Source of the DNA: Mariprofundus sp.
GTDB lineage: Bacteria > Pseudomonadota > Zetaproteobacteria > Mariprofundales > Mariprofundaceae
DNA length: 64,000 nt
Reading direction: 5' to 3'
Assembly: GCA_021772775.1 (NCBI GenBank)
Contig: JAJFLH010000035.1
Location: 62,001-126,000 of the forward strand
Shown: one piece after another, positions 45,661-52,656 of the stretch
Position numbering within the stretch: position 1 is the stretch's first letter
Layout of the letters: the number at the start of each line of letters is the position of its first letter
The notes under the pieces: model-generated
What the model was told of the DNA's origin: nothing
Seen by the model: only the letters and a program-made list of their open reading frames with translations
The model's database searches: none
Position numbers and translations under genes: made by a program

Positions 45661-47460
45661 TTAATTCTCAAAGGGTAAAGAATCATCGGTTTCATTTATC
45701 ATACTACTCACGCAGCGGCTCAGTTCACTCAAGTGGAACGGCTTGGTTAATATTGGCTCCAGATCCTGCTCAGGCATAGATGATGCATTTCGATACCCCG
45801 ACATGAAGAGCACTTTGGCTTGAGGGTTAATGCAATGGATCTGTTGTGCCGCTTCTATGCCATCTATACCAGGCATAATCACATCAAGCATAATCAGGTT
45901 AATTTCCTGTTTTTTATCAATATAAATATCAATCGCCTGCTGACCGCTCATCGCAGTAAAAACTCTATAATTCAACTTTTCAAGCAGAGCACACACAACC
46001 TTTATCACCTGTTCATCATCATCGACAACAAGTATCAACTCACCGTTACCAAAAACATTACGGGGCTTGCTAGCACTCACTTCAACAGGTGAACTATCAA
46101 GCAATGGGAAATAGAGATTAAAAACGGCCCCTTCTCCCCTCCTGGAATCAACCTCAACAACTCCACTATGAGATTGCATGGAGCCATAAAGCATCGAGAG
46201 ACCAAGCCCAGTACCTTCGCCAACTTCTCGGGTGGTAAAAAAGGGTTCAAAAATATGCGGTAGGTTGTTCTCGTTAATACCGGCCCCATTATCAGCCACT
46301 GAGATCAGCACAAAATGATCCCCTTCCAGCTGAGGATGTTTACGCTGAAACTTCGCATCGGACTCATATCTGGAAACAGTGACTGTAATGGCAGGTAATT
46401 TTTTATCTTTCAGTGCATAATTGGCATTCAGTAAAAGATTCATGACCATCTGCTGGATTTGATTGGCATCACCCAGAATAGTTTCATCCGTCAAACCTGA
46501 GTTAAAAACAAGCTTAATATGCTGTGGGATTACTACCTTATCCAACTTAATGATTGATCGCATTAATGCATCTATAGCAACAGGTTTAAAGACCGTCGAT
46601 GACTTACGCGCAAAAGAGAGCAGTTGCTGGATCATCTCTGCCGAACGAAACGCGATGGTCTCCGATTCATCCAGGTAGTCCAGGCAAACCTGCTTGTTAT
46701 CCAGCTCCAATCGAGCCAACTCGATATTGCCCGTAACACCTGCAAGATTGTTATTGAAATTATGCGCAATGCCTCCAACAAGGCCGCCAATCGCTTCCAT
46801 TTTTTGGGACTGAATAAAATTCTTTTCCATCTGCTTGCGTATTTTATTTTCCGTTTCCAGATCTTCCAAAGCCGCAGCCATCTGTGTGGTTTGCGAAAAG
46901 TTTTTCGATAACATTCTATGTGAGTTGCGTGCAATGCTCCAAACAGCGGCCGTGAAAACAATCAACAGGCTTCCCATAAGTATGGTTCTCTCATCATCTT
47001 GTAGAAAAAGGAATATGGTTATTGGAACCAGGGTAGGTAAAAAATAGACCGAAAAGGCTAGCATTGATGCTGACATCGAGTTTGCTGCTGCAGCAGCAAA
47101 ACCTACAAGTACAGCCACCCAAAACACCCAATAAAATATATCACTCTCCAGGGAGAAAGCCACCGAACCTACGCCCCAAAGAAGACCAGCTGAAAGCGAT
47201 GTAGCAATAATAATATGATTAATTCGAGCGTAGGAAGTTGGCGTATTTAAACGCTCTTTTATCCAGAAATAACTCCACAGTCGCGCCATACAGACAAGTA
47301 GGCCCATAACGATCCAGCTGTAAAAAGTTACTGGTTCGATTATCTCATGGAATAAAGCAAAGATGATAAAAATTGCACAGAAAACCGTACCTACAGCTAA
47401 CGGTATATTGGCGCATAAGAATTCAAGTCTGTTTTTTTCTATGGATTCCTGTTTAATCAT
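45661..47460 (-). CDS. Membrane hybrid histidine kinase with C-terminal receiver
   Basis: A 599-residue kinase. About six hydrophobic helices occupy the first 190 residues and form the sensor. The phosphoacceptor helix is [20 protein letters not shown]. The ATPase has [16 protein letters not shown] and GTGLGLSM motifs. The C-terminal receiver has VVDDD and [13 protein letters not shown]. It closely resembles the kinase at 50.9-52.7 kb in its kinase and receiver parts, and the two flank the integron-like cassettes and the RNase H gene. I took ATG 47460 as the start; a TTG at 47499 would add 13 residues. Neither has a clear ribosome-binding site. Confidence 0.9.
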
Positions 47461-47733
47461 TATTTGTACTTTATCTATAACGCCGTCAGAAACCAGCAAA
47501 TAGTCATTTAAGCCAAAGCAAAGCTGAGAGTGATCACTTGGCTTTGTGGCATTGCATTAAACGCCATGATATATTGATAAGCGGCATATTTTCACATGAC
47601 ATGCACAGTTATTATCGAAGCGACTCCCCAAACAAACACCACCGCATCCACATGCTAATGATTTGCAATGCTCTTACCGGACAATCCTGTTAAACTTTAA
47701 AATAGATGCTTTATCGATCTGGACAGTTGTAGA

Positions 47734-48731: not shown

Positions 48732-48793
48732 CATAACGATTTGCATGAGGGGCTGGAGCGAAGCGGAAGTCCCTCTCTATGCATTGGTTAGCT
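48732..48793 (-). repeat. attC-like site 3 (after the 171-residue lipoprotein gene)
   Basis: On the minus strand the site begins AGCTAACCAATGCATAGAG and ends AAATCGTTATGC. The outer TAAC and GTTA boxes, the GAGGGA/CCCCTC inner stem and the central GCTTCGC loop match attC architecture. It lies just downstream of the 171-residue gene. Confidence 0.78.
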
Positions 48794-48809
48794 GTGCTGA
48801 GCCCCATTA

Positions 48810-49325
48810 TTAATTATTAATGATTTTATCAATTGCTGAAGAAAAAGCTCTTTTCTCGGCTTCAAGTTCAGCCGGGTCAATTGCCCAATTCTTATCCTGC
48901 TCTCTAAAGGCCGCGAAATATCCCCAAGACTCAACTTTTCCAGTACCTTCACTTTCGCTCTCTGAAATAATTTTATTATCATGGACAACTTGCAAAAGAC
49001 AACGAACATCAACTGAATAATCACGCCCTATAAAGCCAAATGCAAAAGCTGTTGCAAATATTTCTCCCATACTTGGTTTCTTGGTGTTTAAGTGAATAAA
49101 GTGGATATTAATTGTGGGGAGAGTCTCATTGGCAGATAATAATGTCCTATATTTATTTCGGATAAACTTTTCAAGCTCTTTGCTATGTTTGGATTCAATC
49201 TTTCCCAAATAATATTGCTCGCTTCTTTCATATTTAGATATCGGGATATTCATATTTTGATGCCGAGCACAGCCAGAACTTAAAAAAGTTAAAATTAAAA
49301 GCGTTGCTAAAAATATTTTTGACAT
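48810..49325 (-). CDS. Putative lipoprotein (cassette-borne), function unknown
   Basis: A 171-residue protein with a lipoprotein signal peptide (ATLLILTFLSSGCARH; lipobox LSSGC, Cys19). The mature part is mixed alpha/beta with no recognised domain, including GEIFATAFAFGFIGRDYSVDVRCLLQVV and a helical end. It may sit in the outer or inner membrane; residues after Cys are ARHQ, so no Asp retention signal is seen. AGAGGA lies six bases before the ATG, and 38 bases separate it from the upstream attC. It is A+T-richer than the flanking genes. I do not recognise the family. Confidence 0.68.
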   Translation of the reverse strand: MSKIFLATLLILTFLSSGCARHQNMNIPISKYERSEQYYLGKIESKHSKELEKFIRNKYRTLLSANETLPTINIHFIHLNTKKPSMGEIFATAFAFGFIGRDYSVDVRCLLQVVHDNKIISESESEGTGKVESWGYFAAFREQDKNWAIDPAELEAEKRAFSSAIDKIINN

Positions 49326-49362
49326 ATATTTCCTCTTAATGTTTTTTGATCTGTAAAATTGA

Positions 49363-49424
49363 AGCTAACGCTTTAGTTGAGGGGCAGCGGCGAAGCCGGT
49401 GTCCCTCTCGAACTTTTTGTTAGG
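49363..49424 (-). repeat. attC-like site 2 (overlapping the end of the PG-binding gene)
   Basis: On the minus strand the site begins CCTAACAAAAAGTTCGAGAG and ends CTAAAGCGTTAGCTTC. The inner GAGGGA/CCCCTC stem and GCTTCGC loop match the other two sites. It contains the last codons and stop of the neighbouring gene (TAA at 49373-49375). Confidence 0.82.
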
Positions 49425-49930
49425 TTCTTTTGTAGTGTCTGAAAATTTTGGATAGGTTCTATGTTTAGTTCCGAGATGGTTTTTAAATCAAGAACTCCAG
49501 TCTTTGGAAGTTTCTTCGTTTCCTGAAAGCTAAGAATTGATTTTTGAGTAGCGACACCTATATGACCATCTATTCCACCTTTATAGTATCCAGTGTTTTG
49601 CAAAGCTGCTTGAGCCTTGAATATAGTAACTGTATCCATTAATGCCAAAGAAGCTTTGGAATTATTCAAAGAAATTTCTTTAACTTGTGCAACTTGTGAC
49701 TTTGCTTTTTCCGCTATGTCGATAGCGCGATCAAGTTTGGCTTTAATCCCATTTACATCGACAGATACATCAATGCTCTTCCAAACAGACATTCCTACTA
49801 ACATAACAGCAAATCCAGAAAGGCAAATTCCACCAAGCTGAAGAACTTGATGCTTAACGTATACGAAGCAGACCGACAAAAGCATTATTGCGCCAAGAAC
49901 CAGCGCTACTATATATACTGGATTTTCCAT
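49373..49930 (-). CDS. Membrane protein with peptidoglycan-binding-like domain (cassette-borne)
   Basis: A 185-residue protein. Two N-terminal hydrophobic helices (VYIVALVLGAIMLLSVCFVYV and LSGFAVMLVGMSVW) precede a short linker with coiled-coil character. The C-terminal half has a peptidoglycan-binding 1 fold (LQNTGYYKGGIDGHIGVATQKSILSFQ). It may bind the cell wall. The start is ATG 49930, with GGAG six bases upstream; ATG 49942 lies closer to the previous attC. The C-terminus (about the last 16 residues, SRGTPASPLPLN) is encoded inside attC site 2. Function is unknown. Confidence 0.7.
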   Translation of the reverse strand: MENPVYIVALVLGAIMLLSVCFVYVKHQVLQLGGICLSGFAVMLVGMSVWKSIDVSVDVNGIKAKLDRAIDIAEKAKSQVAQVKEISLNNSKASLALMDTVTIFKAQAALQNTGYYKGGIDGHIGVATQKSILSFQETKKLPKTGVLDLKTISELNIEPIQNFQTLQKNLTKSSRGTPASPLPLN

Positions 49931-49943
49931 TATAATCTCCATT

Positions 49944-50005
49944 CCCTAACGCTTTAGTTGAGGGGCTGAGGCGCAGCCGAAGTCCCTCTCTAACTTTTTG
50001 TTAGA
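49944..50005 (-). repeat. attC-like site 1 (after the 176-residue gene)
   Basis: On the minus strand it starts TCTAACAAAAAGTTAGAG and ends CTAAAGCGTTAGGG. Outer TAAC/GTTA boxes, AGTT/AACT and GAGGGA/CCCCTC stems and a GCTGCGCC loop follow the attC pattern. It lies between two small minus-strand genes. Confidence 0.85.
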
Positions 50006-50012
50006 GTGCAAT

Positions 50013-50543
50013 TCACCTAGATACGTGTCTTGCAATCTGATTCCCTGACTTTCCAACACTAAGAATCACCTCTGATGAAGATGCTCGAAGGATATCTAGA
50101 GCTGTTTTTTCACTGATACCGGCCATTGAGGCAAGCTTTCCAATTGTGCGCCAGCGATATTTATGAACTTTTAGGCCTTCAAGCATACGTTCCTTAGCCT
50201 CGTTAAAAACTGCTTCATTTAGATTATGAATTTCCATTTCTATGACCGGTAGATTCTCATTTACAACGCCATCGCGATTATTGTTTTCAAGAACAGAAAC
50301 TCTATCTTTCAGTAATTGTATTTCTTCCTGTAGTGGGTTTAATTCCTCATCAATTCCATCTGATAAATCTTTTAACTTGATATGCCTATGCTCTCCCCAG
50401 CTAATTTGTATGTCTCCACGCTCAAGTAGGGCACCGACCTTTCTTCGATAAATATATACAAATATAGCAACTCCAACAAATAACAAAAAAGGCCAATTCA
50501 TTATTGCTAAAACTATATCAAACCATGATTTTGTAGGCTCCAT
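50013..50543 (-). CDS. Membrane-anchored coiled-coil protein (cassette-borne), function unknown
   Basis: A 176-residue protein. An N-terminal hydrophobic helix (WPFLLFVGVAIFVYIY) is followed by a positively charged stop (RRK). A cytosolic coiled coil (about 65-95; ELNPLQEEIQLLKDRVSVLEN) and a C-terminal small helical domain resembling a winged helix (RWRTIGKLASMAGISEKTALDIL) follow. It could be a membrane-bound DNA- or partner-binding protein. GGAGG lies six bases before ATG 50543. It is the first cassette gene, ahead of attC-like site 1. I do not recognise the family. Confidence 0.68.
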   Translation of the reverse strand: MEPTKSWFDIVLAIMNWPFLLFVGVAIFVYIYRRKVGALLERGDIQISWGEHRHIKLKDLSDGIDEELNPLQEEIQLLKDRVSVLENNNRDGVVNENLPVIEMEIHNLNEAVFNEAKERMLEGLKVHKYRWRTIGKLASMAGISEKTALDILRASSSEVILSVGKSGNQIARHVSR

Positions 50544-50886
50544 TTAATACCTCCATTTTTAAAAGGATGTTCTCTAACTAACACAATATGAGTAATCGTT
50601 ATTCCGCATATTATGCTCCTATAGGTGGACACATATTCCACAATATCTCATATTAAAGGCTAATTGTGGATTGAAATTACAAATGCCTTTTGGGAACGAT
50701 CAAAAGCATTCTTCACGCAGTCAATCTCGTGCCTAAATCTATTACAGCTCCAATCATTCCGTTGCCCAAAGGATACAGCATTAAATTCACTTGTATGTCC
50801 CATAAATATGGGACAAAGAAAGACTGCGAGAACCAGAGTGATTATGAAGAGAATGGATGCTTAGCCCTTCTGATAGCTATTGATCC

Positions 50887-52656
50887 TCAGATGACGTAAT
50901 AATCACTGGGATTATCATCAGTGGTATTTAATGTCTCAACGGCCTTTAATAAATCTTCGACTTTAAATGGTTTTTCCAGCACTGCGCTGGGAGCGGATTC
51001 AGTATCTATCTTGCCCAATTCTTGAGAAGGATCATAACCTGTGACAAAGACGATGGGAGCAGTGATTGATATCTGTCGAATCTGCCTGGCGGCTTCAATA
51101 CCATCCATGTAGGGCATCACGACATCCATTAATATAAATTGTATTTCGGCCTTGTTTGCAATGAACTTCTCAACGGCATGACGTCCATCAAACGCTTCAA
51201 TGACACGGTAACCAAGCTCTTCAAGTACGCCTCTATTGATCTCTCTCAACACCGCGTCATCATCGACTAAAAGAACACACCCACCCGCCAAACGTTCAAT
51301 CATTTTCGTATCTGAATGCGCTGTAGTGTGAAGCAGATCGGCTTCCAATAGAGGTAAATAGAGACTAAAGATGGTTCCCTCTCCCACACTGCTTTCAACA
51401 TCCACAATGCCACCATGAGATTCAATGCATCCCTGCACCATAGAGAGACCTAAACCTGTACCCTTACCAATCTCCTTTTTTGTAAAAAAAGGTTCGAAGA
51501 TCTCTTTTAGATCCATCGCGGCAATGCCATGGCCATTATCTGAAACGGTAATGCATGCATACTGTTCAGAAGTTTGTGATGAATGTTTTAAAACAACTCT
51601 TTCAGGCAAACTCTTCTTTTCAAGTAGCAGGGAGATAGCTGGCATCTCAGACTGCTCAAGAGCGTCTCTCGCATTATTTGCTAGATTGATCACAGCCTGT
51701 TGCAGCTGGGTAAAATCACCATTTACAGCAAGTCTCTCTTCACAGACACTCACATTAAAGCGAACGCGCTCAGATACAGTTAATCTAAAGAGTGTTGATG
51801 ACTCATCAATCAAGTCATTCAACGACATCGCACTCATCTTGCGACTGTCTTTACGGGCAAATGCCAACAGCTGTTTTACCATCTCTGCAGCCCTACTTGC
51901 TTGTGATTCGATGCTTGCAAGCCTCCTGTTTTTACCCAACTCTCTCTGTGCAAGAAATACCGATCCAACAATGCCCGCTAATATATTATTGAAATCATGC
52001 GCAATGCCGCCAACCAAAGTCCCGATAGACTCCATTTTTTGGGCTTGAAACAGCTGGTTTTCCATATCTACAATATTCTGTAAGTTCTGTAATACGCCGG
52101 CATAATGGATCACTTTACCATTTTGATCATGAACAGGAGAAACTGTCAGAAAAGAAGCAAAAGTTTTGCCCGCTTTATCTTTGCAAACCACTTTGCCTCG
52201 CCATTCATCGCCATTGGCTGTTGTAGCTTTCAAAGCTCTGAAAAAGATATCTACTGATTCGGAAGTAAGAAGAAAATGTGGTGATTTACCCAACACTTCT
52301 GATTCAGAATAAGCTGTAGTTTGAGAAAAAGCAGGGTTAACAAACTCGATTTTACCATGCTTGTCCGTAATAATAATGGAGTCACTCGCCTGATGAATCA
52401 CTGAAGATAGTTTACTGGTTTCGCTAAGTTTCTCCTGAACTAAAGAAGCCAGCTGCTTACTTTCGGCTAATCTTCTGTAAGAGAACCAGATACTACCTAT
52501 TAGGAGAAAGAATAGTGCAATCAGGAGCTCATCAACCTCCCAATCTTCATGTTGAAGAAAGATTGCATCCATGCGCTCATAAAGGTCGACTTGTACTGCA
52601 AGAATAAACGCAATCGATGTAATAGTGACAATTACAATACTATCTTTAAACCACAT
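50887..52656 (-). CDS. Hybrid histidine kinase (TM, PAS, HisKA, HATPase, receiver)
   Basis: A 589-residue kinase. Two hydrophobic helices at about residues 5-25 and 43-60 anchor it. A PAS domain (about 80-195; IIITDKHGKIEFVNPAFSQTT) senses an unknown signal. The phosphoacceptor helix is VGGIAHDFNNILAGIVGS. The ATPase has DNGHGI and GTGLGLSM motifs. The receiver has LVDDDAVLRE and FILMDVVMPYMDG. It is clearly related to the kinase at 45.7-47.5 kb. Both may act on other receivers, as no separate regulator is adjacent. Confidence 0.92.
   Translation of the reverse strand: MWFKDSIVIVTITSIAFILAVQVDLYERMDAIFLQHEDWEVDELLIALFFLLIGSIWFSYRRLAESKQLASLVQEKLSETSKLSSVIHQASDSIIITDKHGKIEFVNPAFSQTTAYSESEVLGKSPHFLLTSESVDIFFRALKATTANGDEWRGKVVCKDKAGKTFASFLTVSPVHDQNGKVIHYAGVLQNLQNIVDMENQLFQAQKMESIGTLVGGIAHDFNNILAGIVGSVFLAQRELGKNRRLASIESQASRAAEMVKQLLAFARKDSRKMSAMSLNDLIDESSTLFRLTVSERVRFNVSVCEERLAVNGDFTQLQQAVINLANNARDALEQSEMPAISLLLEKKSLPERVVLKHSSQTSEQYACITVSDNGHGIAAMDLKEIFEPFFTKKEIGKGTGLGLSMVQGCIESHGGIVDVESSVGEGTIFSLYLPLLEADLLHTTAHSDTKMIERLAGGCVLLVDDDAVLREINRGVLEELGYRVIEAFDGRHAVEKFIANKAEIQFILMDVVMPYMDGIEAARQIRQISITAPIVFVTGYDPSQELGKIDTESAPSAVLEKPFKVEDLLKAVETLNTTDDNPSDYYVI

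Follow-up and report, generated by a model that had tools for sequence, protein, structure and literature searches.

What can an array of gene cassettes do when no integrase gene lies beside it? The locus shown here raises this question. It belongs to a window (the whole stretch of 64,000 nucleotides that was analysed) from a genome assigned to the iron-oxidiser family Mariprofundaceae (3.12 Mb in 40 contigs, 99.96% complete). The initial annotation had placed a three-cassette array without an integrase at 48732-50582. Its right end should reach about 50724 to take in an attI-type element and a putative promoter (Table 1).

Table 1. Features of the cassette array and of the region that precedes it (window positions)
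Feature	Position	Strand	Description and basis
Cassette 1, 628 bp	49950..50577	-	ORF 50543-50013 (176 aa), then attC; predicted crossovers
Cassette 2, 581 bp	49369..49949	-	ORF 49942-49373 (189 aa), then attC; predicted crossovers
Cassette 3, 632 bp	48737..49368	-	ORF 49325-48810 (171 aa), then attC; predicted crossovers
attC of cassette 1	49946..50004	-	repeat, structure alignment, covariance model 76.4 bits
attC of cassette 2	49365..49423	-	repeat, structure alignment, covariance model 79.8 bits
attC of cassette 3, last in array	48733..48791	-	repeat, attC scan, covariance model 79.0 bits
attI-type element (attI core and PintI region)	50574..50671	-	CTAACTAACACAATATGAGTAATC...CTCCTATAGGTGGACA...TTCCAC-N24-GTGGAT
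Putative Pc	50696..50724	-	TTGACT (50724-50719), 17 nt, GATCGT (50701-50696); reads into array
Relic PintI promoter	50626..50654	+	TGGACA-17-CATATT; scan 9 of 12; points to where intI would be

Three attC-type sites

A repeat search of the window found a direct repeat with a unit of 59 nt in exactly three copies, the attC entries of Table 1, at spacings of 632 and 581. Compared with the middle copy, the outer ones show 90% and 71% identity, and the mean column identity of the three is 87%. The initial annotation had described three minus-strand palindromes, each following a small gene. Repeat search and ORFs agree with this, but not with the length of 62 bases given for them: the repeat measures 59 nt with its outer CTAAC/GTTAG boxes and 57 nt when counted from TAAC to GTTA.

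At all three sites the strand that would pair (window plus strand) folds better than dinucleotide shuffles, with z values of -2.5, -4.0 and -2.2. In an alignment of eight sites, which includes sites of relatives, the imposed attC structure had 93% of the cells paired, and pairing fell to 33-55% when the structure was slid along the alignment. The L arms, which are separated by a 3-nt bulge, showed seven compensatory double changes versus 2.1 in shuffles. Like attC sites, the window sites are R/L box palindromes that fold on the bottom strand and conserve structure rather than sequence. A covariance model (R1) was trained on eight sites, among them those of the window, and scored all three strongly; a verdict of non-attC at all three, which the initial annotation had named as a refutation, was not obtained.

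Applied to the 3.1-Mb genome, R1 found only five sites: the three of the window and two others outside the training set, each on a contig with an attI copy. One lies 0.7 kb from the attI copy of contig 11, and the other, a weak match of 23.5 bits, 7.9 kb from that of contig 34. Matching attC sites elsewhere in the genome, which the initial annotation had proposed to look for, are thus present. The same type occurs in 44 of 74 genomes of the family Mariprofundaceae; in genomes of the genus Ghiorsea it forms arrays beside intI (L074, L078), and it also occurs at an integrase-less dock (L089). The attC of cassette 3 is almost the same as one in a Ghiorsea array that adjoins intI (L078 277-333). 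A scan for attC arms gave 27 candidates versus 10 in shuffled sequence, so only sites with a good energy or covariance model score were used.

Could the palindromes be ordinary repeats or terminators instead, for example REP-like elements? They are short, G+C-rich and located 3' of genes, as such elements would be. Yet a terminator scan made no call at the three sites, and their layout is that of attC with bulged, covarying L arms. Moreover, just five family members exist in the genome, all on attI contigs and all in the cassette direction of the attI. We regard this alternative as hardly credible. An Rfam search of the array region gave no match. Judged by fold, covariation and model score, the three palindromes are attC-type sites and the cassettes are read one way, as had been claimed at the outset.

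Cassette contents

The cassette genes are mutually unrelated. Their G+C contents are 38, 39 and 36%, and the 600-bp pieces of the window have a median of 45.5% and a 5th percentile of 39.5%. Both properties, lack of relatedness and A+T-richness, had been noted before and are borne out. The ORF of cassette 2 overlaps its own attC. The proteins of cassettes 1 and 2 each have an N-terminal hydrophobic segment; the former gave a weak helix-turn-helix match (Pfam HTH_10, E 0.017), and the latter has a PG_binding_1 domain at 109-157 (Pfam PF01471, E 3.6e-10). The cassette 3 protein has a lipoprotein-like N-terminus (LSSGC). All three products may be envelope-associated.

Among the 74 family genomes, cassette 1 had no relative except for a 55-residue match (E 6e-4) inside a 974-aa frame, and no relative was found among viral contigs. 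Cassette 3 had none in 398 genomes of the phylum, the 74 of the family included. A search of plasmids gave no match for cassettes 1 and 3, and for cassette 2 only three partial matches, covering 29-34% of the query. PADLOC gave no match among the cassettes.

The same genes and palindromes in conserved order across distant relatives would have spoken against a cassette array, according to the initial annotation. This was not seen; the window genes are not kept in order. The RNase H gene that neighbours the array was found in 10 congeners, where no other window gene lies within 1.5 kb of it, with the exception of one weak histidine-kinase match in one genome. The flanking histidine kinase has matches of 51% or lower and many paralogues. 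PAS-histidine kinase-receiver hybrids such as those at 45661-47499 and 50887-52656 of the window are very numerous in genomes of the genus; one of them has 53 matches in the source genome at E 1e-60 or better.

An attI-type element and a putative promoter upstream of the array

The attI element lies directly upstream of the first window cassette, with a predicted crossover at 50578/50577 (between AG and TTA on the minus strand). When positions 50585-50654 were compared with the sequence that immediately precedes an intact intI on contig 34 (see below), the local alignment score was 61; the maximum in 500 shuffles was 30, and the next best score in the window was 24. The homology spans about 70 nt of the attI/PintI region, and a second genus has this region ahead of its intI too. 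By this homology, the window array hangs on an attI-type site related to the one adjacent to intI, with cassettes inserted at GTTA.

With at least two attC sites in the same direction and no intI adjacent, the window array has the anatomy of a CALIN, and it could have arisen by IntI-driven insertion at a non-attI genomic (attG-like) site that was never a platform. Integron integrases are flexible in site use, and insertion at attG is described in work cited in PMC12444791. However, the upstream homology to a true intI-adjacent region goes far beyond an attG core. This origin is disfavoured because it needs that homology to be due to chance, which the shuffles and the distribution in the family exclude; we consider it highly improbable.

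In the alignment of the family copies, conservation of the element starts at the crossover and extends as far as two inverted motifs, TTCCnC / GnGGAA; where the middle base of one motif differs between copies, that of the other differs with it (A/T, T/A and one G/C). Past this pair the integrase-less copies diverge except for GTCAA, which is TTGAC on the cassette strand. The PintI hexamers are kept in most family copies. At 50636-50671 of the window, TTCCAC / GTGGAT flanks the PintI -10; with its compensating changes across the family copies this might be an operator, kept also in copies that have lost intI. A search for an intI remnant at 50681-50886 found none (alignment scores of 28 and 36 versus a shuffle mean of 33.5).

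TTGAC is found at a fixed place, 127-138 nt from the start of the motif, in 14 of the 18 integrase-less copies, seven of the 14 falling into two related groups; by chance a mean of 0.85 and a maximum of 4 were obtained in shuffles. After 17 nt comes a hexamer which in nearly all cases has A as its second and T as its sixth base. In intI-bearing copies the letters in question belong to intI codons and to the start codon, which leaves the orphan class as the only informative one. The -10 is weak and a general promoter scan did not list the site. We read the conserved TTGAC-17-nAnnnT arrangement as a putative cassette promoter, Pc.

The integrase of the genome and the dispersal of docks

Genome-wide, one gene scored above the TIGR02249 cut-off (265), a full-length intI on contig 34 with 438 bits; matches on contig 36 had 50-72 bits and stayed below the cut-off. 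The encoded IntI aligns over its full length with the solved Vibrio IntI4 (2a3v, E 2e-93), and the RHRY catalytic residues and the IntI-specific insert are visible in the alignment. The gene adjoins its own attI and attC-bearing cassettes. As this intI is intact, the window array is without an integrase only locally. The initial annotation was right that no intI lies beside the array, and the genome search it had proposed found this one intact gene. Its reading of the locus as a cluster lacking its integrase was not supported in the sense of a bare attC cluster, since an attI-type site homologous to the one before the intact intI lies upstream.

Next to intI, the contig 34 integron (L008 1-9800) carries a GIY-YIG-like protein, an OLD-like ATPase and a C5 DNA methyltransferase whose partner has 266 aa and which may form a restriction-modification cassette with it; these proteins were named by reading their sequences.

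A pattern search for the attI element that allowed up to three mismatches found 31 copies in 21 of the 74 Mariprofundaceae genomes, and none with the reversed pattern as the control. The source genome holds four, on contigs 29 (window), 34 (with intI), 8 and 11. Outside the family the element was not found among the 398 sampled genomes of the phylum. In a search of 84,980 named species, exact matches were on 12 contigs, all from Ghiorsea, Mariprofundaceae or other Zetaproteobacteria. An intact intI follows five of the 31 copies and a broken or truncated one follows seven; the other 19 are without intI. The contig 11 copy (L073 / L133, at the contig start) is interrupted by a stretch that also ends contig 8 (L072) and is probably an insertion sequence.

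The integrase-less copies lie at many unrelated loci, and within subgroups their similarity runs beyond the expected start of intI as far as the TTGAC box. Hence the integrase-less attI/Pc element might be a small mobile or copied unit, similar to a MITE, that seeds docks and is not a remnant of an integron. Against such a unit, neither terminal inverted repeats nor target duplications were identified, and the decay of intI is graded: one and the same dock locus has a long intI remnant in one genome (G030) and a short one in two others (G087/G088). A copied unit therefore appears quite improbable.

The explanation we favour, and think probable, is that the window array is a dispersed chromosomal attI/Pc dock whose own integrase is absent and whose cassettes were exchanged by an integrase acting in trans. 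The contig 34 IntI would bind the folded bottom strand of attC sites and the attI copies at other docks, and would insert or excise cassettes in trans at docks without their own intI; the Pc of a dock would then transcribe the newest cassettes. The window dock would be one of four sequence-related docks in the genome, of which only that on contig 34 has an intact intI. We infer that it arose through loss of intI from a formerly complete integron, and that IntI may currently act on it.

Probable cassette exchange at docks without intI

Docks that are orthologous between species were recognised by their right flanks. In five pairs of integrase-less or truncated docks (G079/G083, G082/G083, G088/G087, G078/G088 and G078/G087), sequences are 85-94% identical rightwards from the crossover, the match starting 14-18 nt left of the motif, i. 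e. at the crossover. Pairs that include G030 are more distant, with 73-83%. Leftward of the crossover the orthologous docks share nothing, except for one piece in G082 that repeats its own right flank.

G088 and G087 have one intI deletion junction in common, so intI was already missing in their ancestor, and yet their first cassettes differ. In G079 and G083, where the dock is without intI, the attC-bearing cassettes are different too. In addition, the orphan dock of G087 and an array of G084 that has intI hold the same cassette of about 280 nt; the two copies are about 91% identical and both end at crossover sites. This suggests that cassettes were exchanged at orphan docks after intI had been lost.

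In the relatives where cassette exchange is clearest, G079, G082, G083, G087 and G088, no intI was found in assemblies that are 87-90% complete, so an integrase of an ancestor, or one from outside, may have been at work. As the left flanks of orthologous docks are non-syntenic even far out, some of the difference on the left side may stem from rearrangement instead of cassette exchange.

Where docks agree in the right flank (L120, L124, L089, L080, L159-L162), their left flanks are unrelated even at a distance of 15 kb, and one set of left-flank genes is found at dock A in G087 and at dock B in G079. Docks may be breakpoints of rearrangements, or the pattern may reflect low synteny or assembly error. 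On contig 132 of G082 (L121), the right flank is repeated at the left end in the same orientation, with the array and attI between the repeats; this may be a tandem duplication, a circle or an assembly artefact.

The window dock might also be a dead relic, in which intI was lost and attI and cassettes were frozen without function, as argued for Treponema phagedenis and for several Xanthomonas lineages. The series of decaying intI genes in the family fits this, as does the view in the literature that arrays without intI turn static or stable (PMC3607928; PMC12444791). No attC was found behind the cassette on contig 8, and the contig 11 element is cut by the insertion-sequence-like stretch. But integrase-less copies from different genera have retained the attI core and the TTGAC box, although the stretch between the two has diverged, orphan docks that descend from a common intI-less ancestor carry different cassettes, and the genome holds an intact intI. 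All in all, a dead relic seems unlikely.

Comparison with known integron systems

A complete sedentary chromosomal integron, for example the contig 34 platform, has in common with the window dock the homologous attI/PintI region and the attC-bearing cassettes that diverge from it. In contrast, the window dock has no intI and only a short array of three cassettes. Since intI is not adjacent to the window attI, the array does not count as a complete integron. From CALINs it differs in that it retains an attI-type site and a probable promoter, both conserved from species to species. For attI, detection by IntegronFinder is limited to class 1 (PMC9024848).

Mobilisation in trans has already been proposed for CALINs (PMC9668308, PMC12444791). 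In Xanthomonas, as here, intI is at one locus and attC clusters are at other conserved chromosomal loci, namely the CALINs outside ilvD; the accessible text of PMC12444791 describes no attI element at those loci. There, loss of intI is tied to stable arrays, whereas the orphan docks of Mariprofundaceae differ in their cassettes. The Treponema study likewise regarded arrays that lack intI as static or stable (PMC3607928). Sites derived from attI and away from intI are known from the Delta-attI cassettes of mobile class 1 and 2 integrons (PMC12901181). Those are attI fragments that serve as cassette ends, whereas at the window dock the whole attI/Pc region is located upstream of the array. In the open-access literature, outside which most subscription papers fall, we found no account of an orphan attI or of an integron in Mariprofundus or Zetaproteobacteria.

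By its anatomy, the window array is a CALIN and mostly of a known kind; what appears new are the conserved, dispersed attI/Pc docks without intI. The surprising part is that one attI/Pc element is shared by many integrase-less copies and that orthologous copies carry different cassettes. Integrase-less arrays are usually described as static relics, and the comparisons made here point to cassette replacement after intI loss. A recognisable attI/Pc element is now available for scoring.

As a tentative generalisation, to which we give somewhat less than an even chance, the Mariprofundaceae integron could be distributed: several attI/Pc docks, most of them without intI, would each hold a few expressed cassettes and be served in trans by one integrase. 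If so, many CALINs could be functional docks of a multi-site integron, and expression of the integron would not be confined to the head of one array. A genome would have several first-cassette positions versus one long, mostly silent array.

A related Mariprofundaceae assembly (G065, e. g. L127 and L140) contains 52 attC sites of the same family spread over many contigs, one of which carries intI; this is probably a large chromosomal integron.
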